Below, in pieces: positions 5,203 to 44,842 of a DNA stretch of 64,000 nucleotides. The first letter of the stretch is position 1; each line of letters opens with the position of its first letter. The notes beneath the pieces are model-generated. The model was given only the letters and a program-made list of their open reading frames with translations, did not search any database and was not told the DNA's origin. A program made the translations under genes and the position numbers. The DNA is from an uncultured Rhodocyclaceae bacterium (lineage in GTDB: Bacteria > Pseudomonadota > Gammaproteobacteria > Burkholderiales > Rhodocyclaceae), in the NCBI GenBank assembly GCA_907163225.1, contig OU015322.1, forward strand, positions 806,001 through 870,000, given 5' to 3'.

Positions 5203-6044
5203 CGAATCAGAGCGCAGCAACGTGCAATGCGCTGACCATCGACGTTGAAGATTATTTTCAAGTCTCAGCCTTTGCACCTCACATACCTCGCACCGACTGG
5301 CCCATTCATGAATGCCGGGTAGAGCAGAATGTTGACCGCATTCTTCAGATGCTTGAGAACCATGGTGCTAAAGGTACTTTCTTCACCTTGGGATGGCTCG
5401 CCGAACGTTATCCGGAAGTTATCCGGAGGATTGTAGACAGCGGACACGAGCTGGCCAGCCATGGGTATGGCCATGAACGCGTTAGCGACCAGACACCTGA
5501 AAGTTTTTTCGCCGATATCAATGTCGCAAAGTTGATCCTAGAAGATCTTTCCGGACAAGAGATTAAGGGTTATCGGGCCCCTAGCTTTTCGATCGGTGAA
5601 AAAAACCTATGGGCCTTCGAAACACTGGAGAGAGCCGGTTACCAGTACAGCTCTAGCATCTACCCAATCCGCCACGATCATTACGGTATGCCAAATGCGC
5701 CCCGCCATCCCCATCTTGTCGGCAACCTTCTGGAAATACCTGCGACTACGCTACGTTTCTTCAATCGTAACTGGCCGGCCAGTGGCGGTGGTTATTTCCG
5801 TCTGATGCCCTACGAACTTTCACGCTGGATGATCCGCCACGTGAATGATGTCGACCGACTCTCCGCTGTTTTCTACTTCCACCCCTGGGAAATAGATAGC
5901 GGCCAACCGCGCATACCCGGCATTGGTGCCAAAACGCGATTTCGTCATTACGTCAATATTGATCGCATGGAAAGTCGTCTGCATCGTCTGCTTGCCGATT
6001 TTTCCTGGGGACGAATGGACGAGTTGTTCCTGAAGCAGGCGTGA
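5199..6044 (+). CDS. XrtA-associated polysaccharide deacetylase (NodB domain)
   Basis: This predicted metal-dependent deacetylase removes acetyl groups from N-acetylated sugars of the exopolysaccharide. The 281-residue protein opens with TIDVEDYFQ (Asp15, Asp18), the form of NodB motif 1 typical of the exosortase-associated family. It has SHGYGHE with His88 and His92 as metal ligands, YRAPSFSIG around Arg126, and a later FHPWEID motif. The length matches the family (about 280 residues) and there is no signal peptide, so it probably acts in the cytoplasm or by another route. It starts within an ATGA overlap with the preceding small ORF and is followed 4 bases later by the FemAB-like gene. Confidence 0.93.
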   Translation: MTNQSAATCNALTIDVEDYFQVSAFAPHIPRTDWPIHECRVEQNVDRILQMLENHGAKGTFFTLGWLAERYPEVIRRIVDSGHELASHGYGHERVSDQTPESFFADINVAKLILEDLSGQEIKGYRAPSFSIGEKNLWAFETLERAGYQYSSSIYPIRHDHYGMPNAPRHPHLVGNLLEIPATTLRFFNRNWPASGGGYFRLMPYELSRWMIRHVNDVDRLSAVFYFHPWEIDSGQPRIPGIGAKTRFRHYVNIDRMESRLHRLLADFSWGRMDELFLKQA

Positions 6045-7085: not shown

Positions 7086-8297
7086 ATGGCGAATATTCTG
7101 TACCTCGTCCATCGCCTACCCTACCCGCCCAACAAAGGCGACAAGGTGCGTTCCTACCATCTGCTGAAGCACCTCGCTGCCCAGCATCAGGTCTTCCTCG
7201 GTACATTCGTCGATGATCCTTCCGATATGGAGCACATAGATACAGTTCGCAGCTTTTGTGGTGACCTTCATGTGGCACGACTTGACCCAAAAATTGCCAA
7301 AATTCGCAGTCTTACGGCACTTGCAACTAACGATCCGTTGAGTTTGGGTTACTACCGTAACGGAGTAATGCAGGCTTGGGTTGATCGTATCTGCAGGGAA
7401 CACAAAATTGATGCCGCCGTGGTTTTCAGTTCGCCCATGGCACAGTACGTCGAATCAATGCCGCAACTTCCAGTGGTGGTTGATTTCGTTGATGTCGACT
7501 CAGCCAAATGGACACAATACGCACCTAACCACCGCTGGCCAATGTCCTGGCTATATCGGCGTGAAGGTCGCACCTTACTCGCCTATGAGCGAAAAATAGC
7601 TGCCAGATCCATCCGTTCGTTCTTTGTCACCGCTGCCGAAACAGCGCTCTTCGCCGAAATGGCGCCGGAATGCGCAGATCGCGTCGCCCCCATATGCAAT
7701 GGCGTCGATGCTGACTTTTTTTCCCCTGACGCAGGGCGTCCAACTCCTTACTCGCCCAACGAAATCCCGGTAGTTTTCACAGGTGCGATGGATTACCTGC
7801 CAAATGTCGACGCAGTGCGCTGGTTCGCCGCCGAGATGTTGCCGGCACTCCTCGAACGCCGGCCACAGGTCCACTTTTACATCGTTGGCCGCAGTCCAAC
7901 GACTGAGGTTCTGGCATTGGCAAATGCAAATATCACCATTACTGGCACAGTTCCAGATGTCCGCCCATACATCCAGCACGCCGCGGTCGTAGTAGCTCCG
8001 CTACGTATCGCTCGAGGCATCCAGAACAAGATTTTAGAGGCAATGGCGATGTCAAGGGCAGTGGTTGCCTCGACGGAATGCGCGACTGCGGTCGACGCCA
8101 TTTTTGGTCAAGAATTGCTAACCGCCCAGACGCCCCTTGAATTTGTTGATGAGATTGACCGCCTGCTCATAGATGCAGATAGAAGGGCTCAGATAGGTCA
8201 CGCAGCTCGACAGCGCGTCCTGGCGCGCTACAGCTGGGACGCCCATCTTGGCGGCATGGACAAGTATCTTTCGTCCGTGAAGGCGGCCACGATATGA
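7086..8297 (+). CDS. XrtA-associated sugar transferase 1 (GT-B)
   Basis: This 403-residue glycosyltransferase has a GT4-like fold. The N-terminal Rossmann opening ILYLVHRLPYPPNKGDK is characteristic of the PEP-CTERM/EpsH-associated transferase family. The C-terminal nucleotide-sugar domain contains GIQNKILEAMAMSRAVVAS, the E-x7-E-type donor region. The start at 7086 (MANILYLVHRL) fits the family opening; a longer frame would overlap the FemAB gene by about 70 bases. Its TGA overlaps the ATG of exosortase A (ATGA). It is expected to add one sugar to the lipid-linked repeat unit at the cytoplasmic membrane face. Confidence 0.92.
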   Translation: MANILYLVHRLPYPPNKGDKVRSYHLLKHLAAQHQVFLGTFVDDPSDMEHIDTVRSFCGDLHVARLDPKIAKIRSLTALATNDPLSLGYYRNGVMQAWVDRICREHKIDAAVVFSSPMAQYVESMPQLPVVVDFVDVDSAKWTQYAPNHRWPMSWLYRREGRTLLAYERKIAARSIRSFFVTAAETALFAEMAPECADRVAPICNGVDADFFSPDAGRPTPYSPNEIPVVFTGAMDYLPNVDAVRWFAAEMLPALLERRPQVHFYIVGRSPTTEVLALANANITITGTVPDVRPYIQHAAVVVAPLRIARGIQNKILEAMAMSRAVVASTECATAVDAIFGQELLTAQTPLEFVDEIDRLLIDADRRAQIGHAARQRVLARYSWDAHLGGMDKYLSSVKAATI

Positions 8298-9820
8298 ACC
8301 AACATGTGGCAACTGCCAAAGTAAGTTGGAAAACTACTTTGATGGCAGTCCTGGCGATTCTCGGCTGGATCGGCTACTGGTATTGGGGCACTCTTGAGGC
8401 AATGGCGCAAATTTGGTGGAGATCGGAAACCTATGCTCACGGGTTGATTGTTCCGCCAATTTCGCTGTGGCTGATCTGGCGTGAAAGGCATCGTCTGGCC
8501 ACCGTTCAGCCGAGTCCAGCCTATGTTTTTGCCCTCGCAATCCCGTGCCTGGTATTTTGCTGGTGGCTTGGAGAACTGACTGCAGTCAACGCGCTGACCC
8601 AGTTCTCGGTCGTCGGCATCATCATTCTGGCCATCATGGCATTGGTTGGCCCATCGGCGAGCAAAGAGCTGGCGTTCCCGCTCATCTTTCTGCTATTCGC
8701 CGTCCCGATAGGCGATTTCCTGCTGCCGCGCCTGATGGAGTGGACTGCCGATTTCACCGTGCTGGCGTTGCGCCTGTCCGGGATACCCGTTTACCGCGAA
8801 GGTCAGAACTTCATCATCCCCAGCGGCCATTGGTCCGTCGTTGAAGCCTGTAGTGGCATCCGATACCTGATCGCATCGCTAACGGTGGGCACCTTGTATG
8901 CCTATCTGAACTATACCTCTCTCAAACGCCGCCTGACATTCATCCTTGTTGCGCTAATCGTGCCCATTGTTGCCAACTGGTTACGTGCCTACATTATCGT
9001 GATGCTTGGCCATCTCTCCGGCAACAAGCTGGCAGTCGGCGTAGACCACCTCATCTATGGCTGGATTTTTTTCGGCATCGTCATCGCCATCATGTTCGTG
9101 ATCGGCATGCGCTGGGCAGAGCCCGACGCATCGAATCAACCGAACAAGCAGGCTTTAGCCAGCCATCGTGAGTCGACGCAAACCCCATGGTTGTCAATGA
9201 CCATCATTGCGCTCATCGTCGCCGCCGCTCCAATTTACGAAAAATTTCGCCAGCAAACCAGCCTATCAGCCGATATTCAGCTTTCACCTGCAGCAACCGT
9301 TGGCCCATGGCAGGAAACCCCCTCACCCGTTAATTGGCAGCCACGATTCGTCAATCCATCAACGGAACTGCACTCTGCGTACAACAGCCCGGATGGGTGG
9401 GTCGGCCTTTACGTTGCCTACTACCAAAATCAGAACTACGACAGAAAATTAGTCACATCGACCAATGTGCTGGTGGCATCAAATGACCCGCAATGGCAAA
9501 TCGTCACAAGCCGATTGGCAAATGCAAATGTTGGCGGCTCAGCGCTAAGTATTCTGGAATCAGAATTGCTGAACAAAAAGAACAGCACCGATGATCGCTA
9601 TACGGTATGGCAGTGGTACTGGATCAACGGTCGCCTGACCAGTAGCGATATCGAGGCCAAATGGCTGTCGGCCTGGGGCAGGCTGACAGGCACTGGCGAT
9701 GACAGCGCCATCGTGGTCATTTACGCGCCCAAACCCACCGCCGACGTATTGTTACCCGCCTTCGCTAGCGAGCTAGGGGATAAAATTCATCGTAGTCTGG
9801 CCGAGGCACGGAAAAAATGA
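8294..9820 (+). CDS. xrtA: Exosortase A with C-terminal EpsI domain
   Basis: This is the membrane cysteine transpeptidase of the PEP-CTERM sorting system. It recognises C-terminal PEP-CTERM signals and transfers the cleaved protein, presumably to the exopolysaccharide made by this locus. The 508-residue protein has about eight hydrophobic helices in residues 15-280. The conserved catalytic residues are visible: Cys186 in VVEACSGIRYL, Arg231 in VANWLRAY, and His252 in VDHLIYGW. Residues from about 300 onward form the periplasmic EpsI-type domain, which is often fused in exosortase A. Start and stop both lie in ATGA overlaps with the flanking glycosyltransferases. Identification is very secure. 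Confidence 0.97.
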   Translation: MNQHVATAKVSWKTTLMAVLAILGWIGYWYWGTLEAMAQIWWRSETYAHGLIVPPISLWLIWRERHRLATVQPSPAYVFALAIPCLVFCWWLGELTAVNALTQFSVVGIIILAIMALVGPSASKELAFPLIFLLFAVPIGDFLLPRLMEWTADFTVLALRLSGIPVYREGQNFIIPSGHWSVVEACSGIRYLIASLTVGTLYAYLNYTSLKRRLTFILVALIVPIVANWLRAYIIVMLGHLSGNKLAVGVDHLIYGWIFFGIVIAIMFVIGMRWAEPDASNQPNKQALASHRESTQTPWLSMTIIALIVAAAPIYEKFRQQTSLSADIQLSPAATVGPWQETPSPVNWQPRFVNPSTELHSAYNSPDGWVGLYVAYYQNQNYDRKLVTSTNVLVASNDPQWQIVTSRLANANVGGSALSILESELLNKKNSTDDRYTVWQWYWINGRLTSSDIEAKWLSAWGRLTGTGDDSAIVVIYAPKPTADVLLPAFASELGDKIHRSLAEARKK

Positions 9821-33832: not shown

Positions 33833-35356
33833 TAGCAGCCTGCCGGACTTGAGCCGACCGGATCAAAAGAATTGAGTTTGCGAGGCCGAAATTCGCTTAT
33901 TTTTACTTGAAGACGCACGAATCCCCCTTGCTTTCGCTACTGCGGACGCAATACGGCCATGCGCTTCAAATTCCATGCGAGGCAAACCAGCATCCACTCC
34001 CCCGTGACTTTCTTCAGGCCGCGTAGGGAGAACTGGCGAAAGCCCAGCACAGACTTGATGATGCCGAACACGGGTTCGACGGTTTGCTTGCGCAGGGCGT
34101 AGAGCGCCCGCCCAGCTTTGGTTTTCAGCTTGTGCGCCATGGCCTGGACGGGCGTTGCATCCGCTGGCAACGCCACCAGCTCGGTAAAGCTTTTCTCCGG
34201 CCCAGGATGATGCTCGTCCCACTTCACCGCAATGAACGGGTCAATCCCCTGCGCCTCACAGGCGTCGACATTCCTGGCGCTATAAAAGCCCGTGTCCGCC
34301 ACGAGCGCCTTCAGCTGCCCCAATGAGGCAGGCAGCGCCGCCAACTGCTTGAGCATCGGCAATACCTGTTCCTTGTCGTTGCAGGCTTGTTTCACGCCGG
34401 GTACAACAACCAGCATACTGCCCGTATCGACCGCGGCCTGTGCGTTATAGGCTTGCTCAAAGCCACCGCCGGCGACCGGCATGATCCGCGATTGCTCATC
34501 CGTCAGATTCAGTTGGTCTTCCGCCTTCGGTCCGGCTGTCGGTGGTTTCGGCGGCTTGCCACCGGGTCTCTTGCCGCTTTCCTTCGCCTTGGCTTCGCGA
34601 TGCGCCAACTTGCGCTCGTACTCGGCTTGCTCTTTCTCGAAACGGACTTGGGCACGTTCCTCGATCTTGGCCTTGGCAGCCGCCATGGCCTCCAGTCGTG
34701 CCTGGCGGCGGGCAATTTCCGCCGGTAGATTCTTGCCGTCCAGCACCGCAGATTGGTCAGCCTGCGCCAGGAAGGATTCGACTTCTGCCTTGAGCTGGAT
34801 TTCCAGGTGTTCAATGTGGCCGTGTGACAGGGCGCTGAGGCGGGAGGCATTCGCCTTGACCTTGGTGCCGTCCAGGCTGATGGTGCCCAGCTTCAGGAGC
34901 TTCATTTCCCGCGCCATCTCAAGCACCTGCACGAATAGGTCGGCTAACTCGTCGAGAAAGCGTCGGCGAAAGGTCGCCAGCGTGTCATGGTCAGGGTGCG
35001 TACCGGCCGCAATGAAGCAAAAGGCCACCGAATCATAGGTCGCCCGCTCAATCTTCCGGCTTGAGAACACCCCGTTGGCGTAGCCATAAACCAGAAACGC
35101 CAACAACACGGAGGGGTGATATGCCGCACTGCCACGACCCGCGTAGGCTGTCTCCAACGCACTGACATCGGGCCCATCAACCACCTCAACAATAAACCGG
35201 GCAAGGTGGTCTTCCGGCAGCCATTCATCGACTGAAGGAGGAAGCAGGTAGCCGGTCTGGCGGTCAACGGGATGGAAGCGGCTCATTTCTCAAGAAGAAT
35301 TCAGTGGGCAAGCGAACATTATCCCATTGGCAATGCGTTAGTCCGACAGGCTGCTA
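33833..35356 (-). mobile_element. IS1182-family insertion sequence with 18-bp inverted repeats
   Basis: The element is about 1.52 kb. Left end 33833-33850 and right end 35339-35356 are inverted repeats of the form TAGCAGCCTGYCGGACTW with two mismatches. A CTAG tetranucleotide lies at each outer edge (33832-33835 and 35354-35357) and may be either the target duplication or part of the palindromic end. One full-length transposase gene is inside. No host gene seems interrupted: it sits between the VanZ-fusion promoter side and the 3' end of the acyl-cassette GNAT gene. Confidence 0.88.
33937..35286 (-). CDS. IS1182-type DDE transposase
   Basis: This 449-residue transposase has an N-terminal DUF772-like DNA-binding part (SRFHPVDRQTGYLLPPSVDE, FSSRKIERATYDSVAFCFIA), a LGTISLDGTKVKANAS segment with the first catalytic Asp, and a central charged insertion. 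VADTGFYSARNVDACEAQG carries the second Asp, and a C-terminal segment VEPVFGIIKSVLGFRQFSLR carries the Glu. The length and motifs are complete, so it could be active. It is enclosed by the inverted repeats described for the element. Confidence 0.93.
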   Translation of the reverse strand: MSRFHPVDRQTGYLLPPSVDEWLPEDHLARFIVEVVDGPDVSALETAYAGRGSAAYHPSVLLAFLVYGYANGVFSSRKIERATYDSVAFCFIAAGTHPDHDTLATFRRRFLDELADLFVQVLEMAREMKLLKLGTISLDGTKVKANASRLSALSHGHIEHLEIQLKAEVESFLAQADQSAVLDGKNLPAEIARRQARLEAMAAAKAKIEERAQVRFEKEQAEYERKLAHREAKAKESGKRPGGKPPKPPTAGPKAEDQLNLTDEQSRIMPVAGGGFEQAYNAQAAVDTGSMLVVVPGVKQACNDKEQVLPMLKQLAALPASLGQLKALVADTGFYSARNVDACEAQGIDPFIAVKWDEHHPGPEKSFTELVALPADATPVQAMAHKLKTKAGRALYALRKQTVEPVFGIIKSVLGFRQFSLRGLKKVTGEWMLVCLAWNLKRMAVLRPQ

Positions 35357-35461: not shown

Positions 35462-36310
35462 TTACAAATCGAAAGCTACAGTCTCGGAATACAAATAATC
35501 AATATCCGCGGAATCAAGCGTCTGACTGAGAAACTGCTTTGGATTAAATCCGGTTCGTACTCGAGCCAGCTTTGGTAGTCGCCCCAGCACCCTTCTCTCA
35601 ATATGCGTTGTCATTATGCCTTGCCAGAAAAAATGCCAACCCAGACGGTTCAGATATTTGCCAAATATACATCCGTCACTGATGTAGATGATATTTGCAC
35701 AAGCCATGCCCTTGAATCGCCCTGGCTTGTAAATAACGTGACACCAATCGGCCTGCCCACCAACAACCAAGTGCTTCAACCAGGGAAAGGACGAATGATC
35801 CCGCCAAATATTGGCCATCGAGTCGGAAAGCACTCTCTCGATCTGGTCAGAGTCGGTCACCACACGTCCGCGAAAGGGATGAATGGGCAAATTGGGAACT
35901 ACCGCAACCCCTTCTTCCAATGCCTTGAATTTGAGGAACTGAAGTGCGCCGGCAACAATCTTAGTCGGGGAAAAATCAGTAAAGTGATACCCCGCCTGTC
36001 CAACGACACTCATTGCCAATTGCATGCTGTATTTGCGATGGCTATCTAGAACGCACCAACTGGTAATATTACAAAAACTTTCTTTCTGGCCACGGATAGT
36101 CCGGTCGGCATAGAGCGCGCCGATTCCTCCAACAACCTTCCCTTCATCCCGCATCAGGAAGCCGTAGTTAGGGCGAACAGCTCCCCAGTTGGCCTTTAAG
36201 CCCGAAATCCAGTCTTTGGCCGTCCGCTTCGCAGGCATATGTTCTTCGAGAAAGGCCGCAAACTCTGGCAGAGTCGCGTCAAAAATTGGTTCGATAATCG
36301 GTTTTGCCAT
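35462..36310 (-). CDS. GNAT-like protein at the end of the acyl-carrier cassette
   Basis: This 282-residue protein has weak similarity to GNAT-fold acyltransferases: NYGFLMRDEGKVVGGIGALY resembles the central strand pair, followed by CVLDSHRKYSMQLAMSVV at the place of the acyl-CoA loop. The canonical R/Q-x-x-G-x-G/A signature is not intact, so the donor may differ (for example acyl-ACP). The start at 36310 (MAKPIIEP) lies 13 bases after the hydrolase 1 stop; a longer TTG frame would overlap it deeply. It is probably the last gene of the minus-strand cassette containing two ACPs and the E1/E2 enzymes. Confidence 0.65.
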   Translation of the reverse strand: MAKPIIEPIFDATLPEFAAFLEEHMPAKRTAKDWISGLKANWGAVRPNYGFLMRDEGKVVGGIGALYADRTIRGQKESFCNITSWCVLDSHRKYSMQLAMSVVGQAGYHFTDFSPTKIVAGALQFLKFKALEEGVAVVPNLPIHPFRGRVVTDSDQIERVLSDSMANIWRDHSSFPWLKHLVVGGQADWCHVIYKPGRFKGMACANIIYISDGCIFGKYLNRLGWHFFWQGIMTTHIERRVLGRLPKLARVRTGFNPKQFLSQTLDSADIDYLYSETVAFDL

Positions 36311-36323
36311 GATATTCAATACG

Positions 36324-37229
36324 CTACTTGCTGTCTTTGACGATGCCTTGACTTGGCGCCAGAGCCAGAAGCCAATCGATTCCCCACTCGGCAACTTGAT
36401 CGCGCCATTCTCTGCTTGAAAATGTATGGTCAGCGTATTTAAGATCGTGGCGAACCAAGGAGCGCGCAGCAAGGTGTTTGCGCCATGCTGGTACGGCTTG
36501 CAGCAGATCATCAAACTCCCTGGAGATCAGATCCCGTCCGCTCATCACCAGCATGATCCGGCCGTTGAACCGTGATAGTCCATCAAGCATCCGGTCGGGA
36601 AGTGGCCTGAGATCTAAATCAGGTGCAGCACTCCGTTCGGCCTTATCCTGCCCTCCCTCAACCTGTCCACGAGCGAGGGAGATCATCTGCAAGGCAGAGC
36701 GAATCGAATCAAGAAAGTCGAATTTCAGGCTAACCACCTTTGCCCAGAATGACCGTTGGGTAAGCCTGTTCAAGTAGTAGTGTTTCACAACCGCTTTTGC
36801 CTGCCCCTGCTCGGTTCGCACCCATGGATTGAGCATGACGATGCCATTGACGCGTGGATCCTTGTGGGCATAGACCAATGATGCAGAGCAGGCATTGCAC
36901 TCGCCCCAAAGAACGACTTGTTTCAGCGAAGGCGTTTCTTCAAAAAACCGATTGAGGGCTGCGCCGATATCGTCTTCGGTATTTTCAAAATCGAGGTATT
37001 CACCGTAGCTGTCTCCCATCCCGCTGAAGTCGAACCGGAATACTGGGAAGCCTTGGGCCGATATTTTCCGCGCCCAAAGCACCAGTTGCCGGTGGCCACC
37101 GATGCGGTATTGAGGACCACCGGCAACCATTACCAGTACGCCGACTTCCTGATTACCCGCAGCAGGATGAAGCATGCCCACCAAAGGTGACCCGCCTGCA
37201 CGTTCTATAACTATGGGTTTTTCGTTCAT
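36324..37229 (-). CDS. Exosortase A-associated hydrolase 1 (alpha/beta hydrolase)
   Basis: This 301-residue alpha/beta-hydrolase belongs to a family known only beside exosortase A. The strand-turn VLVMVAGGPQYRIGGHRQ is followed by FRFDFSGMGDSYGEY, and the nucleophile elbow reads WGECNACSAS, placing Cys111 where Ser is usual. The C terminus has KYADHTFSSREWRDQ, giving a candidate catalytic His. It starts in an ATGA overlap with hydrolase 2. A thioesterase or acyl-transfer role on the neighbouring acyl carrier proteins is plausible, but the substrate is unknown. Confidence 0.87.
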   Translation of the reverse strand: MNEKPIVIERAGGSPLVGMLHPAAGNQEVGVLVMVAGGPQYRIGGHRQLVLWARKISAQGFPVFRFDFSGMGDSYGEYLDFENTEDDIGAALNRFFEETPSLKQVVLWGECNACSASLVYAHKDPRVNGIVMLNPWVRTEQGQAKAVVKHYYLNRLTQRSFWAKVVSLKFDFLDSIRSALQMISLARGQVEGGQDKAERSAAPDLDLRPLPDRMLDGLSRFNGRIMLVMSGRDLISREFDDLLQAVPAWRKHLAARSLVRHDLKYADHTFSSREWRDQVAEWGIDWLLALAPSQGIVKDSK

Positions 37230-38077
37230 TTCTCTGGCCGCAACAGTTCTACCCAGTCAGATGTTTTTTTCACAAGATCGGGAGCAAGAAACCGTTCATA
37301 GAGTGCCCAGAATGCGGCGCCGTCAAAAGGAATGACCTCAGCGGTTCTTCCCGATGACTTCCAAGCGGTAAGAAGTTTTTCGCTGGCAGGAGATATCGTA
37401 TTTTCTTCCCCATTACCTTTTTCAAGCCAGGCTATTGACACCGACTCGGATGGAAACGACTCGCTTACTCGCAGATTCTCGATGGACGTGGCTAGTTCAG
37501 GGTGAATGTCGTAACCAGCCACTTCAATGCTATTACCTTCTGCCAATTGTGCCCGCATTCCTGCCGTAGTGTCTTTCGGTATATCGGTTCGGTCCATATT
37601 GGCAGCGATCCGCATACGCATGAATTGGGTGAGGCACGATTTGCCGTCTACGACGGGTTGCCAGGCGATTAATGTTCGCTTTTTTTGATCCAGATGTAGT
37701 GCGTTGAGGGCCAATGCAACTCCTAAACGAATACCGAGAAGTCCTATACATCCACCTGGCTGTGCGTCAAGCCATTCAATTCCTTGACGCACATTTTCAA
37801 TCCAGATGTCCCAACGTGCATCACCATGCTCACCATCACTCTCGCCGGTACCATACAGATCGATGACCAGCGTACCAACCCCAAGTTGTGCCAGAGCCTG
37901 AGCTTGCGTGGTGACCATGCTGCGGCAGCGATTCATCTCCTCATTGAAAGCGGGGACGACAAGTACGTTGCCCCAAGGCTCTGCGTCGCCGTTAGGTGCA
38001 TGATAAAGAGCGAAAATCCGCCCAATGCCGCTGGACAGAAAAAAGGGGCGCAGTGAAGATGCTGTGGTTACCAACAA
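37226..38077 (-). CDS. Exosortase A-associated hydrolase 2 (alpha/beta hydrolase)
   Basis: This 283-residue alpha/beta-hydrolase fold protein is paired with hydrolase 1. LVVPAFNEEMNRCRSM and VIDLYGTGESDGEHGDARW match the family; the elbow is LLGIRLGVAL, with Arg117 at the nucleophile position, so classical Ser hydrolysis is unlikely. No ATG fits: the frame can extend to a TTG at 38131, overlapping the ACP gene, but the TTG at 38077 (or 38074), with GAG about 9 bases upstream, agrees better with the family N terminus RPFFLSSG. The two hydrolases overlap by ATGA. They may form a complex. Confidence 0.82.
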   Translation of the reverse strand: MLVTTASSLRPFFLSSGIGRIFALYHAPNGDAEPWGNVLVVPAFNEEMNRCRSMVTTQAQALAQLGVGTLVIDLYGTGESDGEHGDARWDIWIENVRQGIEWLDAQPGGCIGLLGIRLGVALALNALHLDQKKRTLIAWQPVVDGKSCLTQFMRMRIAANMDRTDIPKDTTAGMRAQLAEGNSIEVAGYDIHPELATSIENLRVSESFPSESVSIAWLEKGNGEENTISPASEKLLTAWKSSGRTAEVIPFDGAAFWALYERFLAPDLVKKTSDWVELLRPEK

Positions 38078-38102
38078 AATAGTGATCTCGTGTTGCAGTG
38101 GA

Positions 38103-38372
38103 CTAAATGAGTCCTTTTTTTCGGAGTACAAACTCAGCCATTCGCGTCAGCGTACCGAGGTTGTCGATATTGATTTCCTCTTGTGCCAGAGGAATTTCGT
38201 AAGTTTTTTCGTACCAGGCAATTAATTCGAGGAGGCCCGTCGAGTCGATAAGGCCGGTTGCTGGGATGATGTCGTCGAGTCCCAGTTCGGAAGCATCATC
38301 TCCGGTCTGCGCTGCGATTTCGACGACTTTGGCCTTGATTTCAGCTTCAATCGATTCTTTATTTAGTGCCAT
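38103..38372 (-). CDS. Acyl carrier protein (cassette ACP 1)
   Basis: This 89-residue acidic helical protein carries the phosphopantetheine attachment motif GLIDSTGLLEL with Ser44. Four-helix ACP spacing is visible, from IEAEIKAKVVEIAAQ to TLTRMAEFVLRKK. It is encoded 15 bases after the E2 gene, suggesting that it accepts or passes on the acyl group made by the dehydrogenase. Small dedicated ACPs are common in exosortase A loci. Loading by the phosphopantetheinyl transferase of the host is assumed. Confidence 0.9.
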   Translation of the reverse strand: MALNKESIEAEIKAKVVEIAAQTGDDASELGLDDIIPATGLIDSTGLLELIAWYEKTYEIPLAQEEINIDNLGTLTRMAEFVLRKKGLI

Positions 38373-38387
38373 CTCTGTTCCCTTGAG

Positions 38388-39497
38388 TCAGTTATTTTTT
38401 GGCAGTGCGATTTTCTTTAGCGCTGCGACGACCTGCCCGCCGTTCAAGACACGGTGGTCGTAACTCGCCCCTAGCACCCCCTTCCCGCCTTGCCCTGCAG
38501 CATGCGCGACCATGAACGCAGTATGTGGCGGCAAAATCGGAATGTGCCGTGTCACCTTCCAGCGCTCCATACTGGAAAACCCGATCGTGGCTCCTGAGGC
38601 CTCCGATTCACGCAGATTGTGACCTGCAGCACGGCGCAGCACATCGCCGAGTGCGTTGACGAAGCCGAACTCGTCCTGCTCCTGAGCGTCCCGGACCACC
38701 GCCAAATACAGCGCGTCCCCAGCCTGAATGGTGAAACCCAGGTTGACCGGAGCGTATTCGAAACGCTTGTTGCCAACCATGGTTGCGTTCAAGCGCGGGA
38801 TTTTCCGTGCGACTTCCACCATGCGCCATGCCATCAGTGGCAACAAGGGCGGCATCAGCAAGCCTTTGGCATCCTGAAACTGCTTGGCGTACTCAGCCCA
38901 CGGCGCGAGATCGTAGTCGATCTCAATATAACCGGGCACGGCGAAATCGCGATGCCAGGTTACCGTGGCCGCCATGCCTTTTTCTTCGCGGGTAAGATTG
39001 ACCGGGTTGCCTTGAACATCAGGCAGCCCGTCGACCAGTTGCGTCGCGCCAGCATCTTTTGGTTCTGTCTTTGCACCACCGAGTACCGACAAATAGCGCT
39101 CGACAGCCTCGACAGTGATTCTTCCATCTACCGGCGGTATGACATCGGCTTGCAGCCCGTTTTTTTGCAGGAGCAAACGAGCCTTGGACGTAATTTGAGA
39201 ACTGCGGGAAGCAGATTGCCCGACTGCAACCTCCTCAAGCGCCGGGATTGCCTCGTCCTTGGTATTACCAAGCCAGAGCATGATGCTGCCGACCCGAACA
39301 ACTTCCTCAGCCTTAGCGACGAAACCAAGGACAAAGCCAGCCGAGGGGGCGGTTACATCGAGAACGGCCTTGTCAGTCTCGACCTGACCAACAACCTGGT
39401 CAGCCTGGACCTTGTCACCAATGCTCACGTCAAAGGACAGGACTTTGACTTCGTCATCATTATTGTTAATTCGCGGTACGTAAATTGGAGTTGCCAT
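38388..39497 (-). CDS. 2-oxo-acid dehydrogenase E2 (lipoyl acyltransferase)
   Basis: This 369-residue E2-type protein has an N-terminal lipoyl domain with GQVETDKAVLDV (lipoyl Lys43) and a subunit-binding segment around SRSSQITSKARLLLQKNG. The catalytic acetyltransferase domain starts near residue 165. The active-site block reads SYDHRVLNGGQVV: the His is kept but the usual Asp of H-x-x-x-D-G is Asn. It follows the fused E1 gene by 17 bases and precedes an ACP gene. No E3 is encoded nearby, so lipoamide dehydrogenase must come from elsewhere. The acyl acceptor may be CoA or the neighbouring ACP. Confidence 0.9.
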   Translation of the reverse strand: MATPIYVPRINNNDDEVKVLSFDVSIGDKVQADQVVGQVETDKAVLDVTAPSAGFVLGFVAKAEEVVRVGSIMLWLGNTKDEAIPALEEVAVGQSASRSSQITSKARLLLQKNGLQADVIPPVDGRITVEAVERYLSVLGGAKTEPKDAGATQLVDGLPDVQGNPVNLTREEKGMAATVTWHRDFAVPGYIEIDYDLAPWAEYAKQFQDAKGLLMPPLLPLMAWRMVEVARKIPRLNATMVGNKRFEYAPVNLGFTIQAGDALYLAVVRDAQEQDEFGFVNALGDVLRRAAGHNLRESEASGATIGFSSMERWKVTRHIPILPPHTAFMVAHAAGQGGKGVLGASYDHRVLNGGQVVAALKKIALPKNN

Positions 39498-39514
39498 TTA
39501 TTTGCTTCCTGAAA

Positions 39515-41500
39515 CTACAGTAAGTCCATAACTGCCAAGACGATTGCATCCTCGTCCGGCAGCTGGGCGCTTTCCATGCTGCGAGCCGAGGCAATCGGCA
39601 CCGGCGCGCTGCCCAGGCGACCAACTTTGCCGTTATAGCCATTCTCGGTAAGCGTTGCCAATACTTCAGCGCTGAAACCAAATTGATGGTGCGCCTCTTC
39701 AATGACAAGAATCCGCGGCCGATTCAACAAGATATTCAACAGCGAAAAACGCGGAAGCGGAGCCAGCAGCGCCGGCGCTATGATTTCCACGGTCAACTCT
39801 TCATTTTCTTCCAAAATGCGTGCCGCTTTTTCAGCGATCGGCAGCATGCCACCATACGACAACAAGGTGATGTCAGGATCGAGGCTTCCGCTGCGGAGGG
39901 TCGGAAACAGTTCGGCGCCAAGATCAGCGACGTCGCAAGGAATCGCTTCGTACAGCTGTACATCCAGTTTTTCCCCGTAGAGCAATTTGTGCTCAAGAAA
40001 CAGTGTTGGATTGGGCCAACGAGTCGATGCGTCGATCAGCAACTGACCAATATTGTGCCGATGGCTGCCGAAGAGCACCGTTAAACCGGGTACCGAGACA
40101 AATATATTTTCAGGGCTTTGGCTATGGGTCGGCCCATAGCCGCGCCGGCCACCGCATGGCGCTCGAATGATGATGGGCACCGGCGACTCGGCGAACATGC
40201 TGGGAAACTTCACGGCATGGTTGTAGATCTGATCCATACACAGGGTCAGGAAATCCGCAAACATGATCTCGACGATCGGCTTTTTCCCCGCCATCGCCAA
40301 GCCGATACCCGCCCCAGTAATGCCCGCCTCGCTAATTGGAGTGGAAATGACTCGACCCTTGAATTTCTCCGATAGCCCGGCGGTGACCTTGAAGGCACCA
40401 CCATAGGGATCGTGCAGATCCTCGCCAAGGAGCACGACGTTTTGGTCATGCTCGAGAAGTTTATGGAGCGCATCATTGAGAGCCATTCTGACGTTCGACG
40501 AACTTGAATCGGCCTTGGGAAAATTGATGCTAACCGACGGAATGAATGAATGCTCAGGCACCTGATCAAAACTTGCCAAACTTGACGCAAGCGCCTTTTT
40601 CTCAACTTCAGCCAGGAACGACTTGCATGCCGATTCAATTGCTGCAACCTGTTCATCGGAAAGCTGCTTCCGTAACGCCATTAGCGGATCGGCTGCAGAA
40701 AGCTCTTCTCGTTCAAGGGCATCCCTGAGGTCATCGCCCTTGCTGTGCGGCCCGAGGCGGCCCGTGTCGATGACCAGCATTCCGGGGCGTCCACTGTTGC
40801 GGGTGTCCTGAACAACACGTTCGACCTGTTCTGAGAAGTTCTCATCGCGATCACTCAGGCGCCAAGCGGCGAGCCCGAATGCTTTTCCTCGCGCCACTAT
40901 ATCGCCGCCAATGGTGTCACGAGTATAGGTGGTCTGTGCAATACCGTTATGTTCGACGACGAAAAGTACCGGTGCATTCCAGATTGAAGCCAGGTTCATG
41001 CTCTCATAGAGCATGCCCTCACCTAGCGTGCCGTCACCGATGATGACGGCCACGACTCCTTGACTGGACCTTGAATTCACTTCTGTCGCCAAACCAACGC
41101 CAATGCCGGTCATCCCAGCCTGGACGCCATTGCTATGAAAATTGCGATAAGCCAAATGCTGACTTCCGCCATAGCCCGAACAGACACCAGCCTGACGCCC
41201 CACGATTTCCGCAACCAGGCCAAGAAAATCCCCGGAATACGTCAGAAAATGACCGTGGTTTCGGTGATTCGAAAGGACATAGTCATCCGGGTGATTCAAC
41301 GCCCGGACTACGGACATTTGACACAGCTCCTGACCGAGACACGTATGTGTCGTACCGGAAACCAAGCCCCGCCCAAACAAGTCAAGGATCAGCTTTTCGG
41401 TTTCCCGAATCAGGTAGCCATATGAAAACAAGCCAAGAGGGGAGCGATCGATTACAGGCTTTCCCCATGTATCGAAACGTACAATTTCGGAAATATCCAT
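39515..41500 (-). CDS. Fused E1 alpha-beta subunit of a 2-oxo-acid dehydrogenase
   Basis: This 661-residue thiamin-diphosphate enzyme joins E1-alpha (about residues 20-330) and E1-beta (about 345-661). The ThDP motif is GDGTLGEG (GDG at 155-157) with Asn185 in VVEHNG. The beta part contains VVLLGEDLHDPYGGAF and PISEAGITGAGIGLAM. The start at 41500 (MDISEIVRF) avoids overlap with the upstream ACP gene, which a longer frame would invade. It decarboxylates a 2-oxo acid and passes the acyl group to E2. Substrate pocket residues cannot be read confidently; pyruvate, branched-chain oxo acids or acetoin are options. Confidence 0.9.
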   Translation of the reverse strand: MDISEIVRFDTWGKPVIDRSPLGLFSYGYLIRETEKLILDLFGRGLVSGTTHTCLGQELCQMSVVRALNHPDDYVLSNHRNHGHFLTYSGDFLGLVAEIVGRQAGVCSGYGGSQHLAYRNFHSNGVQAGMTGIGVGLATEVNSRSSQGVVAVIIGDGTLGEGMLYESMNLASIWNAPVLFVVEHNGIAQTTYTRDTIGGDIVARGKAFGLAAWRLSDRDENFSEQVERVVQDTRNSGRPGMLVIDTGRLGPHSKGDDLRDALEREELSAADPLMALRKQLSDEQVAAIESACKSFLAEVEKKALASSLASFDQVPEHSFIPSVSINFPKADSSSSNVRMALNDALHKLLEHDQNVVLLGEDLHDPYGGAFKVTAGLSEKFKGRVISTPISEAGITGAGIGLAMAGKKPIVEIMFADFLTLCMDQIYNHAVKFPSMFAESPVPIIIRAPCGGRRGYGPTHSQSPENIFVSVPGLTVLFGSHRHNIGQLLIDASTRWPNPTLFLEHKLLYGEKLDVQLYEAIPCDVADLGAELFPTLRSGSLDPDITLLSYGGMLPIAEKAARILEENEELTVEIIAPALLAPLPRFSLLNILLNRPRILVIEEAHHQFGFSAEVLATLTENGYNGKVGRLGSAPVPIASARSMESAQLPDEDAIVLAVMDLL

Positions 41501-41579
41501 CAAGCAAATCCAACGTTGACTAAGTGAATCATGGGCTGTGATTGTGAAAGCTCCGGGATTGTCGATAGCCCACAGCCTG

Positions 41580-41834
41580 TCATTTCCCGTCCGCCTTTCG
41601 CTGCACAAAAGCGATCAACGACCCCAAGGTAGCAAAAACTGCTCCGTCAATCTCATCGTCTTCAACCGAGCACCCGAAGCGCTCTTCGATGGCTGAAATA
41701 ATAGCGATGACTGCCATTGAATCCAATTCCGGAACACTGCCCAGCAATATAGTATCTTCGTCAAACGTAGAGGCTCTTCCTTCCAGGTGAAGAACATCGT
41801 CGAGCATAGAAACTACTTCACGCTTAAAATTCAT
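41580..41834 (-). CDS. Acyl carrier protein, exosortase A system type (cassette ACP 2)
   Basis: This 84-residue ACP has the attachment motif VPELDSMAVIAII with Ser39. The start at 41834 (MNFKREVVSML) has AGGA 7 bases upstream; the GTG further upstream gives only a 10-residue extension. It heads the minus-strand acyl cassette and is divergent from the acyl-CoA ligase gene, its likely loading enzyme in the exosortase-associated pathway. The sequence is clearly different from ACP 1 (different acidic surface and length), so they are not recent duplicates. Confidence 0.9.
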   Translation of the reverse strand: MNFKREVVSMLDDVLHLEGRASTFDEDTILLGSVPELDSMAVIAIISAIEERFGCSVEDDEIDGAVFATLGSLIAFVQRKADGK

Positions 41835-41910
41835 TTTTATTCCTGATGGAAGTTCAGCAACCACTGTATCCGAGTCCCCTACAGAACTCCGTGAGATACT
41901 TCACAAGACG

Positions 41911-41947
41911 TCGCCCTAGTTATGTGTCATCGTAATTCACAGGGCGA
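41911..41947. promoter_or_regulatory. Inverted repeat in the divergent ACP / ligase promoter region
   Basis: TCGCCCT (41911-41917) and AGGGCGA (41941-41947) form a 7-bp inverted repeat with a 23-base spacer, placed between the divergent ACP 2 and acyl-CoA ligase starts. It could be a shared operator, or a chance repeat. No clear sigma-70 promoter with good spacing was found on either strand. Confidence 0.35.
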
Positions 41948-41973
41948 AGTTTAACATTTGACACGAGCTATTG

Positions 41974-43590
41974 ATGACTGAATCTACCCTTTTACATGAA
42001 CTGATTTTCAACGCGAGAGATCGATCAGAAGAGACTCCTGCGCTCAGCGATGGGAAAGTCACGCTATGTTATCGAGAGCTGGCTGCACTTACATCGCGGT
42101 TTGCTTCTGCGTTGAGCGGTTTTGGCCTTGCGCGCGGGGAACGTGTTGCCATCTACCTTGAAAAACGCGTTGAAACCGTTGTAGCCAGTTTTGGCTCGCC
42201 GGCGGCAGGTGGGGTATTTGTACCGATCAATCCTATACTGAAGCCAGAACAGGTGGGCTACATCCTGCGCGATTGCAACGTGCGCATACTGGTCACTTCG
42301 ACCGAACGTTTGAACCTGCTGCAAGACACGCTAGCTACCTGCCACGACTTGCGTCTTGTCGTGGTTTTGGACAGCAAAGGGGTGCTCCCAACGCATTCAC
42401 CGGTCAAACTTTTCTGGTGGAGCGAGTTCCTGGAGCAGGACTGCCCGGTAACGAACCGCGTGATTGACGCTGACCCTGCTAGCATCCTCTACACCTCCGG
42501 CAGTACTGGCAAACCGAAAGGGGTCGTGCTTTCGCATAGAAACATGGTTGCAGGTGCCAAAAGTGTGGCGAGCTACCTTGAAAATCGTGCGGATGACACG
42601 CTTTTGGCTGCCCTACCCCTGTCTTTTGATGCCGGATTCAGCCAGCTGACAACTGCATTCCACGCAGGTGCACGGGTTGTCTTACTGAATTACCTCTTGC
42701 CCAGAGATGTGCTTAAGGCAATCGAGCGCGAAAAGGTCACTGGTCTGACGGCGGTTCCACCGCTCTATATTCAGCTAACGCAGCTAACCTGGCCTGAAAG
42801 CATCACCGAGCATCTGCGCTACTTCGCCAACACCGGCGGCCGCATGCCACGCGAAACGCTGGAGGCATTGCGCCGTCATCTGCCAAAAACCAAGCCTTTC
42901 CTTATGTACGGGTTGACCGAGGCGTTCCGCTCGACATTTTTGCCGCCGGAAGAGGTTGACCGTAGGCCGGACTCAATAGGCAAGGCAATTCCGAATGCCG
43001 AAATTCTGGTGCTGCGCGAGGACGGCTCTCCCAGCGCCCCGAACGAGCCAGGCGAATTGGTGCACCGTGGCGCCTTGGTCGGCATGGGTTACTGGAACGA
43101 TCCGGAAAAAACGGCTGAACGCTACAAACCGCTACCGGTCCATGCGCCTGGCCGCGAGGCCGGGTTGGTCCTGCCCGAGATGGCAGTATTCTCGGGCGAT
43201 ACCGTACGAATGGACGAAGAAGGTTTTCTGTATTTCATTGGCCGTCGCGACGAAATGATGAAGACATCCGGCTACCGGGTCAGCCCGACTGAGGTCGAAG
43301 AAATCCTTTACGCAACTAAGCTGGTCGGCGAATGCGTCGCCTTTGGCGTGGACGACGACCGATTGGGGCATGCCATTCAAGTAATCGCCACCCCGCCTGC
43401 TGGCGGGATTCTTGACGCGAACGCATTGCTGAACGAATGCAGAGTCCGCATGCCAGCCTATATGGTGCCCAGTGGCATCGAGGTGCGGGAAGGCCCGTTG
43501 CCTCGAAACCCGAACGGCAAAATTGACCGAAAAACGCTGTCGACCGCGTGGGTCGAGCAGAAAATCAATAAACTCTCTCATTTAGCCTGA
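41974..43590 (+). CDS. Acyl-CoA ligase (AMP-forming), exosortase A associated
   Basis: This 538-residue ANL-superfamily adenylating enzyme has the P-loop motif LYTSGSTGKPKGVV, then LPLSFDAGFSQLTTAF, the YGLTEAFRST motif, and SGDTVRMDEEGFLYFIGRRD with the hinge. The C-terminal catalytic Lys region is NPNGKIDRKTL. It activates a carboxylic or amino acid and probably loads it onto the divergently encoded ACP. The family is specific to exosortase A loci. The start at 41974 (MTESTLLHEL) is preferred over the TTG one codon earlier. The PLP decarboxylase follows 7 bases later. Confidence 0.92.
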   Translation: MTESTLLHELIFNARDRSEETPALSDGKVTLCYRELAALTSRFASALSGFGLARGERVAIYLEKRVETVVASFGSPAAGGVFVPINPILKPEQVGYILRDCNVRILVTSTERLNLLQDTLATCHDLRLVVVLDSKGVLPTHSPVKLFWWSEFLEQDCPVTNRVIDADPASILYTSGSTGKPKGVVLSHRNMVAGAKSVASYLENRADDTLLAALPLSFDAGFSQLTTAFHAGARVVLLNYLLPRDVLKAIEREKVTGLTAVPPLYIQLTQLTWPESITEHLRYFANTGGRMPRETLEALRRHLPKTKPFLMYGLTEAFRSTFLPPEEVDRRPDSIGKAIPNAEILVLREDGSPSAPNEPGELVHRGALVGMGYWNDPEKTAERYKPLPVHAPGREAGLVLPEMAVFSGDTVRMDEEGFLYFIGRRDEMMKTSGYRVSPTEVEEILYATKLVGECVAFGVDDDRLGHAIQVIATPPAGGILDANALLNECRVRMPAYMVPSGIEVREGPLPRNPNGKIDRKTLSTAWVEQKINKLSHLA

Positions 43591-43597
43591 ATACAGA

Positions 43598-44842
43598 ATG
43601 ACCATACCCATGCCCGTTGCACCGACCCATACGACGATGAATCAGTTTGTCTCAGCTGGCAACCAATTGCTGGTTGGCGGCATGCCCATTTCACGGTTGG
43701 CAGAGCAAGTAGGGCAAACACCTTTCTACGCCTACGACCGAAATTTGCTGCGATCACGTGTTGCTGAATTGCGTGCCGCATTGCCTGAGAACGTGAAGTT
43801 GCATTTCGCAATGAAAGCGAACCCAATGCCGGCTGTCGTTGGCTTCATGGCTGGCCAGGTTGACGGGATCGATGTTGCTTCCGCCGGCGAATTGAAGATT
43901 GCCCTCGATGCCGGCGCCAACCCAAGCGAAATCAGTTTCGCCGGCCCAGGAAAGCGCAACTCCGAACTTCGGCAAGCTGTAGCTGCAGGCGTTCTCATCA
44001 ACATAGAGTCATTTCGGGAAATCGATATCCTTGCGGATATTTCGCATGAGCTTGAACTGGCGGCCCGAGTGGCCGTTCGTGTTAATCCCGATTTCGAGCT
44101 CAAAGGGTCGGGAATGAAAATGGGCGGCGGCCCCAAGCAGTTCGGCGTTGATGCTGAACTGGTTCCGGAGTTGCTCGAAAGAGTCGGCGAGAAAAAACTG
44201 GCATTCGAAGGCTTCCACCTATTTGCCGGCTCACAAAATCTCAAGCCAGAATCGATCTGCGAGGCACAGCAAAAATCCTATGATCTGGCACTCGCACTTT
44301 CTCGCCACGCCCCCTCTCCGGTGCGTTTCCTGAACCTCGGCGGCGGTTTTGGTATTCCCTATTTTCCGGGTGAAAAACGCCTCGATCTGGCACCGATTGG
44401 TGACAATCTGAAACAACTCAGCCATCGAGCAAAGACAGATTTTCCCAACGCCAGCTTGGTGATCGAGCTTGGACGCTACCTGGTGGGCGAAGCCGGAATT
44501 TATGTCTCCAGAATCGTCGACCGCAAGATTTCGCGCGGTCACACCTTTCTGGTGGTTGACGGCGGACTCAACCACCATCTCTCCGCGTCTGGAAATTTCG
44601 GGCAAGTCATCCGAAAAAACTACCCAGTCACGATTGGCAATCATGTAAACGCCGACCAAACTGAAATCGCCAGTGTGGTCGGTCCACTCTGCACGCCGCT
44701 TGATATTTTGGCTGACCGCATGACGTTGGCGGTATCGGTTCCAGGCGATCTCGTCGTGGTATTTCAATCCGGTGCGTATGGTGCGAGCGCGAGTCCGCAG
44801 CGATTTTTAGGGCACCCCGAGGTCATCGAGGTTCTTGTTTAA
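43598..44842 (+). CDS. PLP-dependent decarboxylase, exosortase A associated
   Basis: This 414-residue fold-type III PLP enzyme is related to diaminopimelate and ornithine decarboxylases. The PLP-lysine motif is FAMKANP (Lys73). Gly-rich FLNLGGGFGIPYF is the phosphate loop, and VVGPLCTPLDILADR carries the Cys near the other subunit's active site. It follows the acyl-CoA ligase closely and belongs to the same exosortase-linked pathway. It probably decarboxylates an amino acid, perhaps while bound to the ACP, giving an amine substituent. Substrate unknown. Confidence 0.92.
   Translation: MTIPMPVAPTHTTMNQFVSAGNQLLVGGMPISRLAEQVGQTPFYAYDRNLLRSRVAELRAALPENVKLHFAMKANPMPAVVGFMAGQVDGIDVASAGELKIALDAGANPSEISFAGPGKRNSELRQAVAAGVLINIESFREIDILADISHELELAARVAVRVNPDFELKGSGMKMGGGPKQFGVDAELVPELLERVGEKKLAFEGFHLFAGSQNLKPESICEAQQKSYDLALALSRHAPSPVRFLNLGGGFGIPYFPGEKRLDLAPIGDNLKQLSHRAKTDFPNASLVIELGRYLVGEAGIYVSRIVDRKISRGHTFLVVDGGLNHHLSASGNFGQVIRKNYPVTIGNHVNADQTEIASVVGPLCTPLDILADRMTLAVSVPGDLVVVFQSGAYGASASPQRFLGHPEVIEVLV

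Follow-up and report, generated by a model that had tools for sequence, protein, structure and literature searches.

A conserved E1-E2, carrier protein and GNAT cassette in an exosortase-A locus as a candidate route to glycolyl decoration

Introduction

Why would an exosortase-A exopolysaccharide locus carry a dehydrogenase-type E1-E2 gene pair, and where would the acyl group made by such a pair go? The question is raised by a stretch of 64,000 nucleotides (the window; contig OU015322.1, positions 806,001 to 870,000, assembly GCA_907163225.1) from an uncultured Rhodocyclaceae bacterium, in which genes for an E1 dependent on thiamine pyrophosphate (TPP) and for a lipoyl-bearing E2 lie between two acyl carrier protein (ACP) genes, beside the XrtA ligase and decarboxylase. 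We know of no established product for the ligase, decarboxylase, ACP and hydrolase genes of exosortase-A systems. An earlier note on this DNA had proposed an acyl-decoration pathway in which E1-E2 converts a 2-oxo acid and loads an ACP. Our results suggest that the cassette serves to form a small acyl group, of which glycolyl (hydroxyacetyl) is the likeliest, and to bring it via carrier proteins to an amine, a reading to which we assign a probability of about 0.55.

Results

The E1-E2 cassette of the window

The cassette is encoded on the minus strand and is transcribed in the order ACP1-E1-E2-ACP2-hydrolase 2-hydrolase 1-GNAT, with the ligase and decarboxylase divergent. All these parts, including the ACPs on both sides of E1-E2, had been seen by the earlier note, and they are present with the expected families. 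E1 (39515..41500; PF00676, PF02779 and PF02780) is a fused alpha-beta TPP-dependent acyl-forming subunit of 661 amino acids from its ATG, or 697 from the TTG start given in the ORF list. Where the note speaks of fusion, this applies to the alpha and beta halves of E1, which is encoded separately from E2. E2 (38388..39497; PF00364 and PF00198) has a lipoyl domain, a segment that by eye resembles a subunit-binding domain, and an acyltransferase domain. The exosortase-A-type carrier ACP1 (41580..41864) scores 26.5 bits with PF00550 (cut-off 20.8) and has the conserved LDSM serine. ACP2, the carrier that travels with E1-E2 (38103..38372), scores 18.4 bits, below that cut-off, and has the conserved IDS serine, the DS serine being conserved in 24 of 24 aligned rows.

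Downstream lie hydrolase 2 (37226..38131; TIGR03101, 248.9 bits, cut-off 202.75), hydrolase 1 (36324..37229; TIGR03100, 295.6 bits, cut-off 168.45) and a tandem-GNAT N-acyltransferase-like protein of 282 amino acids (35462..36310), identified by alignment, a predicted model and Foldseek. Since only 17 bp separate E1 from E2 and 15 bp E2 from ACP2, and the two hydrolase genes share 4 bp, the seven genes are likely to be on one transcript. On the plus strand are the XrtA ligase, which resembles an adenylation domain of a nonribosomal peptide synthetase (NRPS) (41971..43590; TIGR03098, 778.6 bits), and the BtrK-like, pyridoxal phosphate-dependent XrtA decarboxylase (43598..44842; TIGR03099, 620.8 bits). 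Both are over their curated cut-offs, so that all four companion families, TIGR03098 to TIGR03101, are represented in the same cluster as exosortase A.

The E1 falls outside the ordinary dehydrogenases

By sequence comparison, the E1 of the window is not an ordinary pyruvate, branched-chain or acetoin E1. It scores 168.8 bits (cut-off 393.85) and 175.9 bits (cut-off 321) with NCBIfam models, E2 scores 75.3 (cut-off 722), and all the PDH, SucB and AcoDH scores listed for the two proteins are below cut-off. In a tree of 45 E1 rows, a branch supported at 100/100 separated 30 clade rows from 15 comparison E1s, as an earlier 32-row tree had done. The clade comprises 14 XrtA-type E1s, those of loci L035-L037, Hoeflea (L018), RenH, one from a Streptomyces NRPS cluster, one from a Paenibacillus cluster, two unannotated actinomycete E1s and seven from loci L090-L096; L012, L017, L048, L050 and a split copy in genome G320 (L068, L088, L089) were left out of the trees. 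In support of this grouping, the motifs HTCxG[QE]E, S[NG]HRxHGH and HSK[GS]DD occur in all 30 clade rows, and YGGAFK and R[GA]YG[PA]THSQ in all 28 that cover them, vs none of the 15 comparison rows.

In the window E1 the TPP motif and the THSQ His are retained, GDGT...N and THSQ being invariant in 16 rows, and so are the other His and Arg positions that are catalytic in pyruvate dehydrogenase (PDH). The Tyr of PDH's YR motif is a His, as in several comparison E1s. E2 keeps the lipoyl Lys43 and His348 of DHR; the Asp of DHRxxD is replaced by Asn352. The E2 tree, for which 14 of the 20 XrtA-type rows were used, agreed with the E1 tree (18 vs 4 comparison rows, 100/99). Note that the genome's own AceF was searched for and not found, and the comparison side therefore has four rows only. 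The lipoyl domains of the clade have in common an N-terminal ND/NE motif that is absent from the four comparison lipoyl domains.

Among plasmid records, the top E1 relatives were RenH (38.7% identity over 95% of the query), actinomycete E1s (43-44% over 76-79%) and the Paenibacillus E1 (38.8% over 84%), whereas E1s annotated as ordinary have 31-35% identity over 90-100%. At 1e-10 the only E2 relatives were RenI (3 records; 20% over 99%). RenH and RenI, of the renieramycin plasmid (MK748464), resemble the window pair in the fused E1 and in the motifs; unlike it, they belong to an alkaloid cluster with no ACP annotated in the 13 kb examined. The annotated Streptomyces relative is part of an ACP-E1alpha-E1beta-E2 set within an NRPS cluster, and the Paenibacillus one of a cluster in which ketosynthase and thioester-reductase genes occur together with an E2 and two ACPs. 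For S. cattleyicolor and Nonomuraea, the records are unannotated at that place.

The gene set is a conserved cassette

An E2 scan, with one genome per species, yielded 16 distinct further loci. These represent fewer independent cases, because L003 and L005 stem from genomes that are also represented by G683 and G671, and L004/L012 and L016/L017 are near-copies. Exosortase-A companion genes accompany E2 in 15 of the 16, Hoeflea being the exception; the ligase is present in nine of the 15, and in L011 exosortase A lies directly before the cassette. L004, L008, L009, L012 and L014 have matching hydrolases, some together with other genes like those of the window's locus. An exosortase over the cut-off was found in five of six of these genomes searched (L008, L009, L010, L011 and L015).

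As the earlier note had suggested, gene order was compared across exosortase-A loci, and the order E1-E2-ACP2-hydrolase 2-hydrolase 1 is kept in 12 of the 16, with the GNAT next in 11 of these 12. ACP2 directly follows E2 in 14 of the 16 and also in L035-L037; an ACP1-type carrier directly precedes E1 in eight (two loci are cut by a contig end); and a GNAT of the window's family occurs in 15. The E1-E2-ACP2-hydrolase-GNAT set is thus a conserved cassette. A third ACP lies 3' of the GNAT in eight of the 16. At this place the window has an ORF (33937..35286, minus strand) that looks transposase-like, and no remnant of a third ACP was found in the window.

Moreover, the cassette is rare. Among 300 genomes of the window's taxonomic order, with at most six or four candidates scored per genome, E2 exceeded 400 bits in four and the XrtA ligase was over its cut-off in 54; only G000 had both (one of the 54 ligase-positive genomes), in line with the earlier remark that an E1-E2 pair is unusual in this setting. 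In the window's own genus, E1 exceeded 1000 bits in three of 36 genomes. In the other three E2-positive genomes, G088, G129 and G201 (loci L035-L037), the genes for GNAT, E1, E2 and ACP2 adjoin one another and an exosortase is encoded on a different contig; none of the three has an XrtA ligase over the cut-off, and the GNAT is thus kept beside E1-E2-ACP2 in genomes without such a ligase. GNAT matches were found in six of the 300 genomes, including all four E2-positive ones. A separate observation concerns G320, where at a contig start (L068 1-2346), separate from L093, a single open frame encodes an XrtA-like E1beta-E2 and a match to ACP2 comes next.

Relatives of the E1 in glycan loci

Across the phylum, E1 reached at least 465 bits in eight of 398 genomes, G000 included. 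L090 and L091 have the order E1-E2-methyltransferase-like-ACP-GNAT (35-36%), then a gene resembling the one that adjoins the GNAT in L035-L037. In L092 and L093, E1-E2 is followed by a protein with an ACPS domain (PF01648), whose N-terminus looks carrier-like by eye. In L094-L096, the gene after E1 encodes a lipoyl domain joined in one chain to NeuD/PglD-type hexapeptide repeats (L094 9019-12121; L095 8206-13572; L096 7819-10869). PF00364 and PF00132 are over cut-off in all three fusions, PglD_N in L096 only, and TIGR03570 gives 140.5 bits in L095 (cut-off 160.8). L095 also has NeuC and an E3 (TIGR01350, 447.1 bits), both over cut-off, NeuB-like and PseF-like genes below it, and a polysaccharide deacetylase; L096 has PseB, PseC and PseF, all over cut-off; and the L094 set comes after two genes that by eye are flagellin-like.

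As far as sequences can tell, it is these lipoyl-sugar-acyltransferase fusions that speak most strongly for sugars as a possible end point of the E1 clade's acyl group, in the relatives rather than in the window, and their place in sialic-acid-type, pseudaminic-acid and flagellin loci favours decoration as the purpose, as had been proposed. The earlier note had added that E1-E2 found widely elsewhere without ACP partners would speak against its idea. This is partly the case outside the cassette, since a profile of 24 ACPs detected no ACP in L094-L096. Because the lipoyl domain there is fused to a sugar acyltransferase, the absence fits decoration and not acylation of coenzyme A (CoA). We put at even odds a general, CoA-independent route of glycan acylation, in which a transketolase-like E1 clade would charge a lipoyl domain with a small acyl group, probably glycolyl, for transfer either to an ACP and a tandem GNAT or to a fused sugar acyltransferase. 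The window would belong to the ACP-GNAT branch, whose setting is exosortase-A polysaccharides, whereas the fusion branch is found in the three kinds of loci just named. Should the fusions act as their domains suggest, lipoyl domains would donate acyl groups to sugars without CoA.

The receiving side: GNAT, ligase, decarboxylase and hydrolases

Neither Pfam nor NCBIfam has a family that matches the GNAT. A structural model predicted with confidence (mean pLDDT 91.0) shows a tandem GNAT fold, matching by Foldseek the solved structures 2ozg (6.9e-10) and Eis2 (1.2e-9), and also N-myristoyltransferase. The model thus bears out the GNAT-like gene of the earlier note, with the start at 36310 instead of 36514. 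In genome G015 (L070 8084-12602), which also has an exosortase, a 35%-identical GNAT lies in one run with FkbH (TIGR01686, 315.3 bits, over cut-off), an ACP and a MaoC-SDR protein. Since FkbH proteins make glyceryl-ACP, the GNAT would here again meet a small hydroxyacyl-ACP. In G099, a 29%-identical relative adjoins an NRPS.

Among solved chains, those nearest to the XrtA ligase (at 1e-60) are of linear gramicidin synthase subunit A (238 bits), and the nearest structure to the decarboxylase is BtrK (276.4 bits, vs 165.6 for the best diaminopimelate decarboxylase). BtrK acts on a glutamyl-S-carrier, as stated in a passage of PMC7857480. Given these nearest relatives, BtrK and an adenylation domain, an amine bound to ACP1 is the probable product of the XrtA core, and the same similarities suggest that in XrtA loci generally an amino acid is held by ACP1 and loses its carboxyl group there. 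Candidate acceptors for the GNAT are this amine and amino sugars. The XrtA system polysaccharide deacetylase of the window (5199..6044, plus strand; TIGR03006, 447.1 bits, cut-off 276.2) is a possible source of free amines.

The two hydrolases, which the earlier note had considered as acyl-transferring enzymes alongside the GNAT, turned out to be odd; the GNAT-fold protein is the likely transferring enzyme. Hydrolase 1 has the elbow GxCx[AG], with Cys111, a conserved Asp233 and His268; the nucleophile place is Cys in all 21 covering rows (of 22), with the Asp and His conserved. Hydrolase 2 is of the alpha/beta-hydrolase family with GxRxG at the nucleophile elbow, and, with Arg in place of the nucleophile in all 19 rows, it departs from the usual hydrolases. 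In L027 and L028 a single longer frame (about 590 amino acids) takes the place of hydrolases 1 and 2.

Other genes near the receiving side deserve mention. A gene of 333-355 amino acids adjoins the GNAT in L035-L037, L090 and L091 (L035 5184-6251, L090 13754-14755). It looks WalW-like in L035-L037 and is deacetylase-like by eye only; with no family match and a poor model (mean pLDDT 44.3), it was dropped as a proven deacetylase. FeeM-type N-acyl amino acid synthases (PF21926) occur near XrtA genes in L019 (7024-8343) and L072 (14641-16011), and none was seen in the window cassette.

The cassette swaps against a constant core

The trees of the hydrolases separate loci with and without E1-E2 cleanly, both for hydrolase 2 (14 vs 5 loci, 100/100) and for hydrolase 1 (14 vs 8, 100/99). 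By contrast, the ligase tree (10 + 10) needs two changes of E1-E2 presence and the decarboxylase tree (9 + 10) three; in the former, the same-genus E1-E2-minus loci L019 and L020 nest among E1-E2-plus loci (97/95). The ACP1 tree needs four changes and is weak. Because the hydrolase trees split by E1-E2 presence and the ligase and decarboxylase trees do not, the cassette seems to swap as a unit: while the ligase and decarboxylase stay as a constant core, the genes for the donor side, ACP2, the hydrolases and the GNAT apparently come and go together. The exosortase-A locus thus takes up swappable donor cassettes.

For these trees 13 of the 16 loci were used, L011 and L018 having no hydrolases in the sequence examined and L012 being a near copy of L004. 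Ten of 17 E1-E2-minus loci were used; L024, L026, L030-L033 and L038 were dropped for having no ACP1 or hydrolase match in 20 kb, and L019 was kept though it has none either. Hydrolase 2 is present in five of the ten and hydrolase 1 in eight, L023 covering 20% of the columns. Among the five E1-E2-minus loci of the same genus or family, L021 and L023 have ACP1-hydrolase 2-hydrolase 1, L020 has the same plus a 233-amino-acid gene in between, L022 has ACP1 and hydrolase 1, and L019 has no ACP1, hydrolase 2 or hydrolase 1 within 20 kb. ACP1 also stands beside the ligase or hydrolases in XrtA loci without E1-E2. In L020 and L025, Pfam gave no match for the genes of 233-234 amino acids that adjoin ACP1.

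Discussion

A proposed relay from a ketose phosphate to an amine

We propose the following series of reactions. E1, with TPP, would remove a ketol unit of two carbons from a ketose phosphate, for instance xylulose 5-phosphate, as its clade suggests. The unit would then be oxidised onto the lipoyl arm of E2, where the lipoyl Lys is present, giving glycolyl-dihydrolipoyl-E2. From there, judging by gene linkage and related systems, E2 would pass it to the phosphopantetheine of ACP2 and not to CoA. No E3 was seen among the genes scanned (35.4 to 46.4 kb of the window), in agreement with the earlier note, and E2 would be re-oxidised by the cell's own lipoamide dehydrogenase. Its gene is presumably a 607-amino-acid lipoyl-bearing frame elsewhere in the genome (C1:1675601-1677463), downstream of a 552-amino-acid two-lipoyl frame, an arrangement that we infer to be Lpd after AceF. 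The tandem GNAT may next move the group from ACP2 to an amine, either of a deacetylated amino sugar of the XrtA polysaccharide or of an ACP1-bound product of the ligase and BtrK-like decarboxylase. Finally, hydrolase 1, with its Cys nucleophile, and hydrolase 2, which lacks one, could form a matched transfer or editing pair.

The donor, acyl group and acceptor are deduced to different degrees of confidence. That the relay ends on ACP2, as the earlier note had supposed for an ACP, is very probable given the linkage of ACP2 to E2. Glycolyl is our favoured acyl group, at somewhat better than even odds, and for the polysaccharide as acceptor the chances are about even. A ketose phosphate, which would give glycolyl, is a likelier donor than the 2-oxo acid proposed earlier, because E1 falls among those of antibiotic-type clusters, apart from the 15 comparison E1s; and since Qnc/Nap/Scl-type systems move C2 units from a ketose phosphate to an ACP, glycolyl-ACP2 is the likeliest product. 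The chemistry from ketose to glycolyl-ACP is so far known mainly from antibiotic pathways. Our hypothesis places it in an exosortase-A locus and names both a small acyl group and a transferring enzyme.

Several observations weigh against this reading. The E1 clade is anchored by RenH, one Streptomyces NRPS cluster and one Paenibacillus cluster, not by Qnc, Nap or Scl sequences; two of the five antibiotic-type anchors (L061 and L063) lie in unannotated DNA, and no text on the function of RenH/RenI was found. Five of the 15 comparison E1s carry a record annotation, the other ten being lower-scoring matches of the E1 searches, and the five motifs were chosen after the alignment had been inspected. 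The Asp of DHRxxDG is absent from all XrtA-type E2 rows except Hoeflea. In L016 and L017, ACP2 is 9.4 kb from E2, in the same cluster. A Leisingera plasmid (L074 295-5432) carries in one operon an acetate-CoA ligase, a true PDH-type fused E1 (over cut-off), an E2 and an ACP; this E1 falls on the comparison side, and PDH-type E1-E2 sets with an ACP thus exist, so an ACP alone does not define the clade. Moreover, E2s of this kind are found in two genomes with no exosortase match, namely in G320 (341 bits) and in Hoeflea, where the neighbour is a different GNAT-like protein (PF13527, 23.1 bits, below cut-off).

What, then, of other explanations? That an ordinary second pyruvate or branched-chain dehydrogenase copy stands beside the XrtA genes by chance is hardly credible: the homology to PDH E1 and E2 is real, and against it stand the gene order conserved across genera, the trees, the motifs and the sub-cut-off scores, by which we ruled this candidate out. 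It is improbable, too, that E1-E2 makes ordinary glycolyl- or acetyl-CoA, with ACP2 serving another step. The acyltransferase domain (PF00198) of E2 is still recognisable and L094-L096 lack a detectable ACP, as that explanation would have it; however, ACP2 directly follows E2 in nearly all further loci and in all three of L035-L037, an ACPS-domain protein follows E2 in L092 and L093, and the annotated Streptomyces and Paenibacillus sets have an adjoining ACP (for Ren none is annotated in the stretch examined).

Two further proposals concern single parts of the relay. The same relay could run on other fuel, E1 decarboxylating a 2-oxo acid (pyruvate, 2-oxobutyrate or hydroxypyruvate) to give acetyl-, propionyl- or glycolyl-ACP2. 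These E1s are homologous to those of PDH and branched-chain dehydrogenase and retain both the TPP motif and the HSQ His; hydroxypyruvate would yield the same glycolyl product; and the pepteridine E1 and E2-carrier set uses 2-oxo acids, as described in part of PMC5384830, a further point against a ketose donor. We nevertheless consider this fuel, though it is the main rival, less likely than a ketose phosphate, in view of the five motifs that the E1 clade has in common with antibiotic-type-cluster E1s and that the 15 comparison E1s lack, and of scores far below the PDH cut-offs. The other proposal concerns the acceptor, which would be an amine on ACP1 instead of a sugar, and is compatible with the glycolyl relay: the ligase would load an amino acid onto ACP1, the decarboxylase would convert it to an amine such as gamma-aminobutyryl-ACP1, the GNAT would cap this amine, and the hydrolase pair would pass the product on. 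The closeness to BtrK, which works on a carrier-bound substrate, the adenylation-domain-like ligase and the ACP1-type carrier before E1 in half of the further loci make it possible, at less than even odds; L035-L037, which keep E1-E2-ACP2-GNAT without an XrtA ligase over cut-off, and the L094-L096 relatives in sugar loci argue the other way.

Comparison with known systems

Passages of PMC6335953 state that QncN, QncL and QncM direct the making and attachment of a C2 glycolicacyl unit, and that SclQ1-4 are proposed to convert a ketose phosphate. According to part of PMC7570522, DinS/DinU, homologues of NapB/NapD, bring the hydroxyethyl unit of xylulose 5-phosphate to an ACP, and a similar statement on related clusters is found in part of PMC9268379. 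As these partial descriptions, rather than sequences, show, the Qnc, Nap, Scl and Din glycolyl-ACP systems, which belong to NRPS clusters (QncN/QncL/QncM, NapB/C/D, SclQ1-4), have, like the window, TPP-dependent E1 halves, a lipoyl-E2 and a discrete ACP. The window differs in that its E1 halves are fused in one chain, the group would probably be received by a GNAT, the surroundings are those of an exosortase and exopolysaccharide, and no NRPS is present among the genes scanned. Since no multidomain NRPS was found among 30 window proteins scanned with NCBIfam, the cassette would work like a Qnc/Nap/Scl system and not be a member of an NRPS set.

In the pepteridine system (Plu2796/Plu2797), as described in part of PMC5384830, E1-E2 also load a carrier domain, lead to an amide and have no E3 of their own; unlike in the window, E2 is fused to a carrier and a condensation domain, and the donor is a 2-oxo acid. 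Butirosin biosynthesis (BtrI/BtrK), as far as the partial sources go, offers the decarboxylase family and the carrier logic of the ligase-ACP1-decarboxylase set; the window ligase is adenylation-domain-like, and no E1-E2 is described there for butirosin. The FeeM-type synthases are, like the window protein, GNAT-fold N-acyltransferases near XrtA genes, a link to PEP-CTERM/exosortase systems being given by a reference title; they are of a different family, lie outside the window cassette and, by reference title, act on long acyl chains.

No title on E1-E2 in exosortase loci was returned by searches on exosortases, with parts of PMC2907700 and PMC9850573 also looked at. Haft 2006 (PMC1569441) contains none of six gene words, and a search on N-glycolyl polysaccharides gave nothing relevant by title. 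In a search limited to open-licence papers, lipoyl-to-sugar acyl donation is not described in the passages of PMC4875605, where "lipoyl" refers to fatty acids.

Surroundings of the cassette

The window holds a full exosortase-A exopolysaccharide locus, as exosortase A (8294..9820, plus strand; TIGR03109, 343 bits, cut-off 208), the XrtA deacetylase, a FemAB protein, an amidotransferase, glycosyltransferases, and chain-length and kinase genes are all present upstream. Finally, the window genes at 15214-16563 and 24331-25002 resemble, with sub-cut-off scores, the families of the DVU_1553 AMP ligase and the DVU_1556 methyltransferase.

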